Shown piece after piece: positions 56,986-60,633 of a stretch of DNA of 64,000 bases (positions are counted from its first letter, which is position 1; each line of letters begins with the position of its first letter). The translations under genes were made by a program, and so were the position numbers. The stretch spans positions 1 to 64,000 of the forward strand of contig NZ_AYKH01000010.1 of NCBI RefSeq assembly GCF_003788635.1, in the 5' to 3' direction. The notes beneath the pieces are model-generated. The model ran no database searches. It worked only from the letters and a program-made list of their open reading frames with translations, and was not told the DNA's origin. This stretch comes from Salinisphaera orenii subsp. orenii MK-B5. Lineage in GTDB: Bacteria > Pseudomonadota > Gammaproteobacteria > Nevskiales > Salinisphaeraceae.

Positions 56986-57429
56986 ATGGCGGTTAAAAGC
57001 AGCACCTCCAAACTCGACGCACCTCAAGAGTTTACGCCCTACACCCCGAAAGAGGGTGAGGAGTACATGAATGAGGCGCAGCGCGAACACTTCCGCAACA
57101 TCCTCGTGAACTGGAAGCGCGAGCTGATGGAGGAAGTCGACCGCACGATGCATCACATGAAGGACGAGGCCGCGAACTTTCCCGACCCGACGGATCGCGC
57201 CAGTCAGGAGTCGGAATTCAGCTTGGAGCTGCGCACGCGCGATCGCGAGCGCAAGCTGATCCGCAAGATCGACCAGGGCATCGCCCGCGTCGACCGTGAC
57301 GAATACGGTTTCTGCGATACCTGCGGCACGGAGATCGGCATACGCCGCCTCGAGGCCCGCCCCACGGCCACCCTCTGCGTCGACTGCAAGAGCCTGGACG
57401 AGATCCGCGAGCGCCAGCTCGGACGCTGA
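56986..57429 (+). CDS. dksA: RNA polymerase-binding transcription factor DksA
   Basis: DksA enters the RNA polymerase secondary channel and, with ppGpp, controls rRNA and amino-acid promoters. The 147-residue product (E. coli 151) has the coiled-coil tip DPTDRASQESEFSLELR with the two acidic residues needed for activity, and a four-cysteine zinc finger (CDTC and CVDC). The start is ATG at 56986. A terminator follows at 57453. Confidence 0.97.
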   Translation: MAVKSSTSKLDAPQEFTPYTPKEGEEYMNEAQREHFRNILVNWKRELMEEVDRTMHHMKDEAANFPDPTDRASQESEFSLELRTRDRERKLIRKIDQGIARVDRDEYGFCDTCGTEIGIRRLEARPTATLCVDCKSLDEIRERQLGR

Positions 57430-57452
57430 CCGCGGGGCAACCGCACGCCGAC

Positions 57453-57480
57453 AATGCCCGCCACCGCGCGGGCATTTTTA
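57453..57480 (+). terminator. Intrinsic terminator after dksA
   Basis: AATGCCCGC (57453-57461) pairs with GCGGGCATT (57468-57476) around a six-base loop, followed by TTTA. It sits 24 bp after the dksA stop and separates it from phaR. Confidence 0.85.
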
Positions 57481-57577
57481 ATGTACTGCGCAGCGATCTG
57501 GGTTCGCCACGCCGAATCTGGCACAATCATCATGTCGCAACGCAGCATGACTGCGTCCTTCAGCCGGGGCACCGAGG

Positions 57578-58120
57578 ATGACCGAAAACACACGCATCAT
57601 TAAGAAATATCCGAACCGGCGGCTCTACGATACCGAGGTGAGTCGTTACATCACGCTGGAGAACATTCGTCAGCTCGTGATTCGCGGCGAGGATTTTCAG
57701 GTGATCGACAAGCGCAGCGGCGAGAACATCACGCGCACTATCCTGCTGCAGGTCATCAGCGAGCAGGAGGAAGGCGGCGACCCCATCTTCCGGACCGAGG
57801 TCCTGCGCAACATCATCCGTTTCTACGGCGATTCGATGCAGAGCACCTTCAGCTCCTATCTCGAGCTCTCGCTGGAGTTCTTCAGTGAACAGCAGCATCA
57901 GTTCAAGGAACGCATGCGGCGCCTGCTCGGCGCCAACAATCCGCTCACGGCGCTGCGCGAACTGTCGCAATATCAGCTGCCGATCTGGCGCAGTGTCCGT
58001 CGCGAGTTTCTGTCCAACCTGACCCGCCGCGAGAAGGAAGAGGCCACACAGAAGTCGCTGTCGGAGAGTGAAAGCCGGAAGGCGTCGCCGGACAGCGACG
58101 AGCGATCCGACGATCGTTAG
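57578..58120 (+). CDS. phaR: Polyhydroxyalkanoate synthesis repressor PhaR
   Basis: PhaR represses PHA granule genes by DNA binding that is relieved by polymer. The 180-residue protein has the N-terminal PhaR DNA-binding motif RIIKKYPNRRLYDTEVSRYI and the accumulation-regulator domain with TILLQVISEQEEGGDPIF. The C-terminus is acidic and disordered. No PHA synthase genes are in this window. A weak inverted repeat follows at about 58120-58155. Confidence 0.94.
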   Translation: MTENTRIIKKYPNRRLYDTEVSRYITLENIRQLVIRGEDFQVIDKRSGENITRTILLQVISEQEEGGDPIFRTEVLRNIIRFYGDSMQSTFSSYLELSLEFFSEQQHQFKERMRRLLGANNPLTALRELSQYQLPIWRSVRREFLSNLTRREKEEATQKSLSESESRKASPDSDERSDDR

Positions 58121-58170
58121 AAACTATCGACGCCATCAAAACGCAGTTTCGTTTTTCGGGCTCACGATGT

Positions 58171-58199
58171 TTGACTAAAGTCGTAGACGCAACTATACT
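58171..58199 (+). promoter_or_regulatory. Sigma70-like promoter of a candidate small RNA
   Basis: TTGACT (58171-58176) and TATACT (58194-58199) are separated by exactly 17 bp, close to consensus. No protein gene follows on this strand; instead the three-hairpin candidate RNA and its terminator do. Confidence 0.8.
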
Positions 58200-58205
58200 G
58201 CAACG

Positions 58206-58297
58206 CAACATCGGCAGACACGCCGAACCACCGAATCTCCTCCGAAAGGCCTAACGGCCTTTCTCGCACCTTGCCCCCTTTCCTAGGGGGCTTTTTT
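58206..58297 (+). ncRNA. Candidate intergenic small RNA with anti-Shine-Dalgarno motif
   Basis: About 92 nt are expected from a promoter at 58171-58199 to the end of a U-run at 58297. Hairpin 1 is TCGGC/GCCGA (58211-58226). Hairpin 2 is GAAAGGCC/GGCCTTTC with a TAAC loop (58244-58263). Hairpin 3 is the terminator. Between hairpins 1 and 2 is an unpaired stretch with CTCCTCC (about 58237-58243), complementary to Shine-Dalgarno sequences. It lies between phaR and the convergent pnp, with no coding capacity. I do not recognise a known RNA family; the 5' end is inferred. Confidence 0.72.
58273..58297 (+). terminator. Intrinsic terminator of the candidate small RNA
   Basis: GCCCCCT (58273-58279) pairs with AGGGGGC (58285-58291) around a five-base loop, followed immediately by six T residues. 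Confidence 0.9.
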
Positions 58298-58355
58298 ATG
58301 GGTGTCGTAGAAATCCGACCGCCCGAGCGATCAGGCCCTCTCGCCACGCAGCCAC

Positions 58356-58382
58356 AAAAAAGGGCCCCGAAGGGCCCTTCTT
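58356..58382 (-). terminator. Intrinsic terminator of pnp
   Basis: On the minus strand AAGGGCCC pairs with GGGCCCTT around a TTCG tetraloop (58379-58360), followed by a run of T residues. It lies about 70 bp after the pnp stop. Confidence 0.9.
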
Positions 58383-58452
58383 TCATCCCGCCCGAATCGT
58401 CACAGCGATCCGGTCATGCCCGTTGCAGGCATCGGGAAATCGTCATCCCGGC

Positions 58453-60567
58453 TCAGGCATTCTCTTCGGCCGCCAGCTCCTTCATGGACAGGCGCACGCG
58501 CCCCTGGCGATCGACCTCGAGCACCTTGACCCGCACCGTCTGGCCTTCCTCCAGCTCGTCGCTGACCTTCTCCACACGGTGATCGGCGATCTGGGAGATG
58601 TGCACCAGCCCGTCGCGCCCCGGAACCAGGTTGACGAAGGCGCCGAAGTCGACGATGCGCACGACCTTGCCCTCATAGACCTGGCCGGCCTCGATGTCGC
58701 GGGTGATGTCCTCGACCCGCTTGATGGCCATGTCCGCAGCGGTCTTGTCCACAGCGGCGATATGGATCGTGCCGTCGTCCTCGATGTCGATGCTCGCGCC
58801 CGTCTCTTCAGTGATCGAGCGGATCGTGGCGCCGCCCTTGCCGATGACGTCGCGGATCTTCTCGGAGTCGATCTTGATGGTGAAGATGCGCGGCGCCCAC
58901 TCGGAGACTTCCTGGCGCGGCTGCTCGATCGCCTCGCCCATGACACCGAGGATGTGCAGCCGACCCTCGCGCGCCTGCTCGAGCGCGGCCTCCATGATCT
59001 CGCGGGTGATGCCGCCGATCTTGATGTCCATCTGCAGCGCGGTGACGCCGTCGGTGGAGCCGGCGACCTTGAAGTCCATGTCGCCGAGATGATCCTCGTC
59101 GCCGAGGATATCGGTGAGCACGGCGAACTTGTCGCCCTCCTTGATCAGGCCCATGGCCACGCCGGCCACCGGCGCCTTGATCGGCACGCCGGCGTCCATC
59201 AGTGCGAGGCTGGTGCCGCAGACCGAGGCCATCGACGAAGAGCCGTTCGACTCGGTGACCTCGGAGACCACCCGCATGACGTAGGGGAACTCTTTCTCCA
59301 GATCCGGCAGTACGCCCACGATCGCGCGCTTGGCCAGCTTGCCGTGGCCGATCTCGCGGCGCTTGGGGCTGCCCATGAAGCCGGTCTCGCCCACGCAGTA
59401 CGGCGGGAAGTTGTAATGCAGCATGAAGGGCTCTTCATGCTTGCCCTCGACTGCGTCGATGATCTGGGCGTCGCGGCCGGTGCCCAGCGTCGACACCACC
59501 AGCGCCTGGGTCTCGCCGCGCGTGAACAGCGCGGAACCGTGCGTACGCGGCAGCACGCCGGTGCGGATGTCCAGCGGCCGTACCGTGCGCGTGTCGCGGC
59601 CATCGATACGCGGCTGACCCTCGAGGATGCGCGAGCGCACCGTCTTCTTCTCGAGCGCGCCGAGAGCGTCCTTGACGTCGTCGGCCGCGTGGCCGCTGTC
59701 GCCGTCCGCGGCAGCCAGTTCCTCGACCACGCGCTTCTTGATCTCCGACAGCCGCGCCTGGCGCTCCTGCTTGTCGGCGATCTGATAGGCCTCGGTGACA
59801 TCGTCCCCGGCGACCCGGGCCACGGCCTCGGCCAGCGACTCGTCGGCGGCCGGCGGCTGCCAGTCCCAGGCCGGCTTGCCGGCTTCGGCCACCAGCGCAT
59901 CGATCGCCTGCACGGCGACCTGGAGCTGTTCGTGACCGAACAGCACCGCGCCCAGCATCACCTCTTCGGAGAGCTGCTTGGCCTCGGACTCGACCATGAG
60001 CACGGCCTCGTTCGTGCCGGCCACGACCAGGTTCAGGTCGCTGGCCTTGATCTGCGTCGCACTCGGGTTGAGTATGTACTCGCCGTCGGCATAACCCACG
60101 CGGCAGCCGCCGATCGGGCCTGCGAACGGCATGCCCGAGAGTGCCAGCGCCGCGGAGGCGCCGATCATGGCGGGAATGTCGGAATCGATTTCCGGATCCA
60201 CCGACATCACAGTCGCGATGACCTGGACCTCATTGTAGAAGCCCTTGGGGAACAGCGGCCGAATGGGGCGGTCGATCAGGCGGCAGGTCAGCGTCTCCTT
60301 CTCGCGGGGGGCGCCCTCGCGCTTGAAGAAGCCGCCCGGGATCTTGCCACCGGCGTAGGTGCGTTCCTGATAGTTGACGGTCAGCGGGAAGAAGGCCGCG
60401 TCGGGCTTGGCTTCCTTGCGACCGACCGCGGTCACCAGCACCACCGTGTCGCCCATGCTGACCATGACGGCGCCGTCAGCCTGACGCGCGATTTCACCCG
60501 TCTCGAGGGTGACGGTCTGCTCGCCGAACTTGAAGGTCTGTTTGCTGGTTATGTTTGCGTTGCTCAC
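58453..60567 (-). CDS. pnp: Polyribonucleotide nucleotidyltransferase (PNPase)
   Basis: PNPase degrades RNA 3' to 5' using phosphate. The start is GTG at 60567 with AGGA seven bases upstream, giving 704 residues starting [20 protein letters not shown]; an ATG ten codons earlier lies at the rpsO terminator and is unlikely. Two RNase PH domains (with [12 protein letters not shown] and the catalytic [20 protein letters not shown]), a KH domain ([13 protein letters not shown]) and a C-terminal S1 domain ([20 protein letters not shown]) are present. Confidence 0.97.
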
Positions 60568-60592
60568 GAATTCATCCTGTCCTGCGTTCAAA

Positions 60593-60633
60593 AACAAAAA
60601 GCGCCCGTCCCGGCATCACCGGGGGGCGCTTTT
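60593..60633 (-). terminator. Intrinsic terminator between rpsO and pnp
   Basis: On the minus strand AAAAGCGCCC (60633-60624) pairs with GGGCGCTTTT (60606-60597), followed by a T-rich run. It lies 30 bp after the rpsO stop and overlaps the region just before the pnp ribosome-binding site, much as in E. coli. Confidence 0.88.

Follow-up and report, generated by a model that had tools for sequence, protein, structure and literature searches.

A small RNA family conserved across the Salinisphaera/Solimonas/Nevskia order, encoded beside phaR and a candidate component of a PhaR circuit

Between the genes phaR and pnp of Salinisphaera orenii MK-B5 lies a member of a genuine small-RNA family that is unmatched in Rfam and was not met in the open-licence literature searched. 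At the sequence level the RNA is structured and conserved, and has a promoter, an operator-like palindrome, synteny with phaR and classes of genes whose leaders are complementary to it. Taken together, these features make it reasonably probable, in our estimate, that the locus specifies a trans-acting small RNA of a PhaR circuit, which would be repressed by PhaR, released by PHB and silence mRNAs for uptake and catabolism. An earlier note on this DNA had proposed an unrecognised small RNA here, and that proposal is well supported by order-wide conservation, covariation and the absence of an Rfam match at the gathering threshold; the promoter palindrome, the order-wide phaR-RNA-pnp synteny, a CGCAC linker and the multi-copy nature of the RNA go beyond it. 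What this adds to the Gammaproteobacteria is a small-RNA family that spans an order and is linked to the PHB regulator PhaR by its position and by a promoter motif; Solimonas, Hydrocarboniphaga and Salinisphaera, which belong to this group, attract interest because of hydrocarbon degradation and storage polymers.

The features of the locus are collected in Table 1, with positions in the window, by which we mean the whole 64,000-nucleotide stretch of DNA that was analysed. The promoter described in the earlier note (TTGACT, 17 bp, TATACT) was re-found; it matches the consensus at 10 of 12 positions and is the sole promoter-like match (58171-58199) within the 2.5 kb from 57000 to 59500, where 0.3 would be expected. 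The flanking genes, likewise named in the note, are borne out by their Pfam domains. Folding of the transcript gives -36.5 kcal/mol, against -20.4 (sd 2.5) in 200 shuffles (z -6.5), none of which was as stable; this fold contains the two stable hairpins and the six-U terminator that had been claimed, and the exposed C/U-rich CTCCTCC linker is indeed unpaired in both the MFE and the centroid structures. The view that the stretch holds no protein gene also stands, the transcript having a single TTG (58271) and neither ATG nor GTG as possible start codons. Behind pnp there is, moreover, a terminator-like inverted repeat (58355-58382) with A and T runs on its flanks, which is probably the pnp terminator.

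Table 1. Positions and strands of the genes, promoter elements and predicted RNA parts in the phaR-pnp region of the window
Feature	Position	Strand	Basis or remark
Weak PhaR-type match CGCAACGCA	57536-57544	+	5' of phaR, read from sequence; might reflect autoregulation
phaR	57578-58120	+	PF07879 (2.2e-29) and PF05233 (1.4e-15) by Pfam; product is a PHB-responsive regulator
-35 box TTGACT	58171-58176	+	Promoter scan
-10 box TATACT	58194-58199	+	Promoter scan; 17-bp spacer to the -35 box
Candidate PhaR-type operator core TGCAACGCA	58199-58207	+	First base is the last of the -10 box; covers the predicted start
Predicted small RNA, ~92 nt	58206-58297	+	Fold, R1 and R2 covariance models; start placed from the -10 spacing alone
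5' hairpin	58211-58226	+	Fold; sequence species-variable, hairpin mostly kept
Unpaired UCUCCUCC, anti-Shine-Dalgarno seed	58236-58243	+	MFE and centroid structures
Second hairpin GAAAGGCC-UAAC-GGCCUUUC	58244-58263	+	Covariation, helix 1
Second conserved linker UCGCACCUU	58264-58272	+	CGCAC conservation
Intrinsic terminator stem and T tract	58273-58297	+	Covariation, helix 2; stem 58273-58291, then six T
pnp	58453-60597	-	Convergent with phaR; RNase_PH, PNPase, KH and S1 domains (ORF list and Pfam)

A DNA search over 61 relatives matched 57 of them at E-values of up to 1, with strong matches at the core of the RNA (58235-58300) and multiple matches in several genomes; its weakest rows are likely to be chance. 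A pattern scan of genome contigs yielded 65 sites on 64 contigs, most of which are named for the Salinisphaera/Solimonas/Nevskia order, and a few otherwise or merely as Gammaproteobacteria. One Salinisphaera-type locus (L104 = G009:C30), from a genome grouped with the source genus, seems to correspond to a record named Endozoicomonas sp. G2_2, which is probably misnamed. The first MAFFT alignment, of 30 sequences, misplaced hairpin 2 by a shift in one group, and the covariance model R1 was therefore built from 14 of them; the remaining sequences were realigned by model, a step that biases them toward the modelled structure. R2 was built from 64 sequences. With R2 the RNA was found in 80 of the 85 genomes of the source order, including 68 of 72 high-quality ones, at 1 to 5 matches per positive genome, and an R2 match is absent from the other five (G011, G014, G016, G345 and G348). 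In G014 and G016 phaR is present and the RNA was found neither by the DNA search nor by R2. Beyond the order the family is rare. In the class, R1 matched 10 of 274 genomes, three of which belong to the order itself and two of which score below 34 bits, and in the phylum R2 matched 4 of 398, namely the source genome and three weak matches (29.6-39.4 bits); since searches over more than 40 genomes use stricter filters, the class and phylum counts are lower bounds. Weak model matches at L040, L041, L042, L237 and L238 were not counted as members.

For 78 matches to the model, 70 of them distinct, covariation scores 0.244, as against 0.081 when shuffled and 0.010-0.079 for slid structures, with two-sided changes in 12 of 15 pairs and 97.3% of cells paired, in an alignment that was fitted to the structure and hence leans toward it. 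Replacements in hairpin 2 are visible across the relatives by inspection of the paired arms (GGCC/GGCC, GGTC/GACC and GGAC/GTCC). The same matches preserve CTCCTCC in 73 cases, UCUCCUCC in 67, TCTCCTCC in 67 and the CGCAC linker in 75; the conservation of this linker and its homologues is about equal to that of the anti-Shine-Dalgarno seed. The earlier note had made its case depend on conservation of the hairpins and of CTCCTCC in related genomes, and the DNA search, the pattern scan and the covariance search find the core of the RNA conserved through the order. The 5' segments fold with z below -1.5 in 51 of 61 cases, and the sequence of the 5' hairpin differs widely between genera. Tandem copies of the RNA occur at L064, L084, L068, L090 and L024; in the second copy at L068 and at L090, UCUCCUCC is replaced by UCUCCUUGA, which perhaps changes the targets.

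The gene neighborhood and the promoter are conserved along with the RNA. phaR is located just upstream on the same strand at 45 of the 65 sites, a lower bound given that some of the other 20 lie near the end of the locus, and 41 of those 45 have pnp downstream as well. A TTGA-type promoter could be placed at 61 of the 65 sites versus 168 of 3200 windows drawn at random from the same loci, and a promoter score of at least 9/12 was reached at 59 sites versus 33 of these windows. Three loci (L052, L055 and L073) keep the RNA behind quite different promoters. PhaR is encoded by 81 of the 274 class genomes, and of 28 such loci scanned two (L210 and L217) hold the RNA family; outside the order, then, phaR usually stands without this RNA. 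In G171, from another gammaproteobacterial family, the RNA (L039) lies behind phaR and a short gene. A phasin-like reading of this short gene, and of one that precedes the RNA in L037, was dropped because Pfam and NCBIfam give no family.

At 50 of the 65 sites the final base of the -10 box also belongs to a palindrome of the form TGCRNYGCA, which lies in every case at a single fixed position, where 0.18 would be expected from its density; palindrome presence broke ties between equally good promoters in this count. Its variants, TGCACTGCA (19 sites), TGCACCGCA (17), TGCAACGCA (4) and others, stay within the PhaR consensus. The Ralstonia eutropha PhaR site is given as YTKNTGCRNYGCANMAR (PMC12849132) and that of Sinorhizobium meliloti as the core YGCRNYGCR (PMC12542648), and our candidate operator fits these reported sites. 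By hand count the source-genome site has three mismatches to the R. eutropha consensus, which is the limit used in that study (PMC12849132). The palindrome is present at 40 of the 45 phaR-adjacent sites and at 10 of the 20 without phaR seen just upstream; a metagenome bin (L050), for instance, keeps the palindrome with phaR not seen at the site. Among the 15 sites that miss it, five are beside phaR (L043, one L064 copy, L066, L082 and L106), with a near variant recognizable by eye at L066. In the source genus it is absent from phaR-less G001, G010 and G013, which do have the RNA, and from phaR-bearing G002, G006 and G008 too, and the association has a Fisher p of 0.07. Four sites in Salinisphaera species that are without the palindrome (L043, L065, L088 and L102) display a perfect inverted repeat, TACGA-AAG-TCGTA, between the -35 and -10 boxes, and this may be a site for another regulator.

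A longer motif, TGCANYGCAACA, has 10 matches in the source genome versus 2 for the reversed control. Besides that at the RNA, four are in gene leaders: 73 nt before the start of an acetyl-CoA acetyltransferase gene, 61 nt before a 3-oxoacyl reductase gene, 130 nt before aceE (pyruvate dehydrogenase E1) and 182 nt before an amino-acid-type ABC transporter gene; of the remaining five, four fall inside coding sequence and one at the end of a gene. The acetyltransferase, the 3-oxoacyl reductase and aceE touch acetyl-CoA and PHB-type chemistry. In a survey of 30 PF09361 loci from the order and the source genome, four short PhaP-type phasin genes (L201, L206, L207 and L208), picked by their N-termini after the table had been seen, are preceded by one or two sites at distances of 59-108 nt from the start, with an extra one at 155 in L208, and five of the other 26 have any palindrome, in a looser form. 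Phasin leaders show at most weak complementarity to the seed. The sole PF09361 gene of the source genome, L147, has one weak operator match; no strong Shine-Dalgarno sequence or good operator was seen there, and hence we do not claim direct repression of this gene.

Studies in other bacteria offer precedents for such an arrangement. In S. meliloti PhaR (AniA) binds the mmgR promoter and represses the mmgR small RNA (PMC12542648), MmgR limits phasins and PHB (PMC8401924), and mRNAs for transport and metabolism are silenced by AbcR1/2, which carry CUCCUCCC (PMC8844928). Because of these MmgR/PhaR and AbcR1/2 precedents, each step of the following circuit, in which we infer transcription, PhaR binding, derepression by PHB, pairing and repression, is plausible. 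When PHB is lacking, PhaR would occupy the palindrome at the -10/start region and block the promoter; as PHB granules form, PhaR would be drawn off to them and the RNA would be made, with the intrinsic terminator setting its 3' end. The exposed UCUCCUCC could then pair with GGAGGAG(A) Shine-Dalgarno regions and block translation of mRNAs that serve the uptake and peripheral catabolism of carbon sources and, perhaps, of those from PHB genes, with the outcome that a cell with full carbon stores would stop importing and burning other substrates. If true, this suggests how the filling of carbon stores could feed back on substrate uptake, a single granule-released RNA switching off many uptake genes at once.

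Candidate targets were sought in the source genome as GGAGGAGA followed by ATG within 10 bases, which occurs 45 times versus once for the reversed control. Loci were obtained for 30 of the 45 sites, 26 of these with an ORF of at least 40 aa, and 25 were scanned with Pfam, the scan having left out L163 (60 aa). A Pfam family was assigned to 22, from which L152 and L164 were dropped (their ATG is seemingly inside a larger gene) to leave 20; three further starts have no Pfam family. The 20 comprise 16 genes of uptake or peripheral catabolism, three sigma54 or AraC regulators and one glutathione transferase. Products of the 16 are the malonate carrier MadL, DctP and other solute-binding proteins, an MFS carrier, an acetone carboxylase gamma subunit, a hydantoinase-type subunit, vanillate demethylase, PQQ and aldehyde dehydrogenases, a cytochrome c/solute-binding protein, AMP-binding ligases and flavin monooxygenases. 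The share of uptake and catabolism is 16 of 20, against a generous count of at most 10 of 30 controls (Fisher p 0.0016), with classes on both sides assigned by one unblinded reader and several target genes adjacent to each other. The controls are other genes with strong Shine-Dalgarno sequences, 30 sampled from 40 found among 302 called genes of 20 stretches (11% of the genome) and the 64-kb window, with starts from a crude gene caller. A different cause of this bias may be that catabolic genes simply favour strong Shine-Dalgarno sequences.

Repression of several mRNAs by CUCCUCC is a plausible idea, which draws indirect support from the kinds of gene whose leaders are perfectly complementary. 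The 11% genome sample and the 64-kb window hold zero GGAGGAGA-ATG sites, and such genes are thus unevenly spread; a Shine-Dalgarno sequence of this type may be the mark of a particular class of genes. Seven of the GGAGGAGA sites are found on contig C2 at 60-115 kb. Samples of 400 kb each from G008 and G045 gave 5 and 2 such starts, of which five of seven are uptake or catabolic; the genes encode a ring-hydroxylating dioxygenase, a TonB receptor, a ureidoglycolate lyase, two solute-binding proteins and a CBS protein, and one of the seven sites is inside an EF-Ts gene.

Other readings of the locus have to be set against the PhaR circuit. The small RNA could be real and its control by PhaR incidental, the palindrome being a mere conserved start region and the phaR neighbourhood inherited synteny, which would sit well with the palindrome missing at 15 of 65 sites and with the three loci that keep the RNA under quite different promoters. 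We regard this as unlikely, however, because all 50 palindromes are at one position and vary inside the PhaR consensus, and because the palindrome also occurs at ten sites where phaR was not seen upstream and is common to the short phasin genes of the order. Action mainly through protein binding, in the manner of a CsrB-type or CrcZ-type sponge rather than by base pairing, is more doubtful still: the second conserved linker and the near-invariant hairpin 2 do exceed the needs of a seed, but by eye the 92 nt contain no repeated GGA or A-rich protein-binding motifs, and what the RNA exposes is, like the AbcR1/2 motif, simply complementary to Shine-Dalgarno sequences.

The two readings that dispense with a regulatory RNA fare worse. 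That the stretch is nothing more than the tail of the phaR transcript, either a 3' UTR or a terminator pair, is very improbable despite its place between the convergent phaR and pnp and the second terminator-like repeat at 58355-58382; promoters are placeable in 61 of 65 sites as against about 5% of random windows, 20 of the 65 sites have no phaR seen just upstream, and the UCUCCUCC and CGCAC linkers, neither of which a terminator needs, are at least as conserved as the stems. As for a short peptide, ORFs cross the region mechanically (58162-58386 on the reverse strand and 58271-58582 on the forward strand), but the idea is scarcely credible for a transcript without ATG or GTG, and any frame would be shifted by the single-base insertions and varied loop lengths seen among the relatives.

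Comparison with known families places this RNA close to, yet apart from, several of them. At gathering cut-offs the Rfam 15 matches in the 64-kb window are limited to the SRP RNA and a tRNA, and 7 other loci gave none. Below threshold, mmgR/suhB (RF00519) scores 16.4 and 14.0 bits against a cut-off of 41, and anti-hemB (RF02837) 14 bits against 49.5. Membership of MmgR/alpha-r8 (RF00519) was dropped, the weak alignment covering the terminator alone, as was that of anti-hemB (RF02837), also a small RNA with a hairpin before the terminator, which aligns on hairpin 2 and the terminator with the first stem missing. MmgR/alpha-r8 RNAs, including Caulobacter SisA-D, nonetheless resemble ours in an unpaired anti-Shine-Dalgarno core after a 5' hairpin and in their multi-copy siblings (PMC12559287), and mmgR in a promoter with a PhaR-type palindrome and a link to PHB (PMC12542648), a palindrome seen here in the DNA of 50 of 65 sites. 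The MmgR/alpha-r8 RNAs are Hfq-dependent and limit PHB and phasins. Their unpaired 10-mer is UUUCCUCCCU (PMC12559287), in contrast to UCUCCUCC here, and our RNA adds a hairpin and the CGCAC linker before the terminator; unlike the alphaproteobacterial MmgR, it is gammaproteobacterial and usually adjoins phaR itself.

AbcR1/AbcR2 (alpha-r15) and NfeR1 of rhizobia resemble it in carrying anti-Shine-Dalgarno motifs of the CUCCUCCC type, through which mRNAs for uptake and metabolism are silenced (PMC8844928). In AbcR1/AbcR2 the first motif is in a hairpin loop, the second motif is UUCCCCUC, and control is by LsrB and RpoH1 (PMC8844928), whereas here CUCCUCC is in the linker after the 5' hairpin and UUCCCCUC is absent from the transcript. 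The Neisseria siblings (NgncR_162/163 and their meningococcal counterparts) are similar by description, being sibling sRNAs with wide metabolic targets (PMC5362039, PMC9973317). With its own promoter, a terminator, a conserved structure and an exposed anti-Shine-Dalgarno motif, all as judged from DNA, the RNA has the features of the class of trans-acting anti-Shine-Dalgarno sRNAs; in its proposed control it comes closest to MmgR and in its proposed mode of action to AbcR1/2, and our tests place it in neither family. In the open-licence literature searched, no paper joined PhaR, sRNA, polyhydroxyalkanoate, phasin and Gammaproteobacteria, and none combined three of Nevskiales, Salinisphaera, Solimonas, small RNA and sRNA; papers there with CCUCCUCCC and sRNA concern rhizobia.

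More speculatively, PhaR and the RNA could form one storage-sensing module that exerts a storage-coupled catabolite repression through GGAGGAGA leaders, with the pairing of PhaR and a C/U-rich sRNA having arisen more than once (MmgR, the present family and L223), a tentative reading that we consider somewhat doubtful as a whole. If PhaR were tied to an anti-Shine-Dalgarno RNA in each of two distant classes, the design would look like a recurring one. The basis for phaR-linked C/U-rich RNAs having arisen more than once is provided by L223 (G268, another gammaproteobacterium), where two tandem terminator-ended units lie downstream of phaR on the reverse strand at about 2150-2600. These units have no Rfam match, and their R1 scores of 13.6 and 12.9 bits are not above chance. 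Each contains a PhaR-type palindrome and large C/U-rich loops, with promoters that are weak or unplaced.
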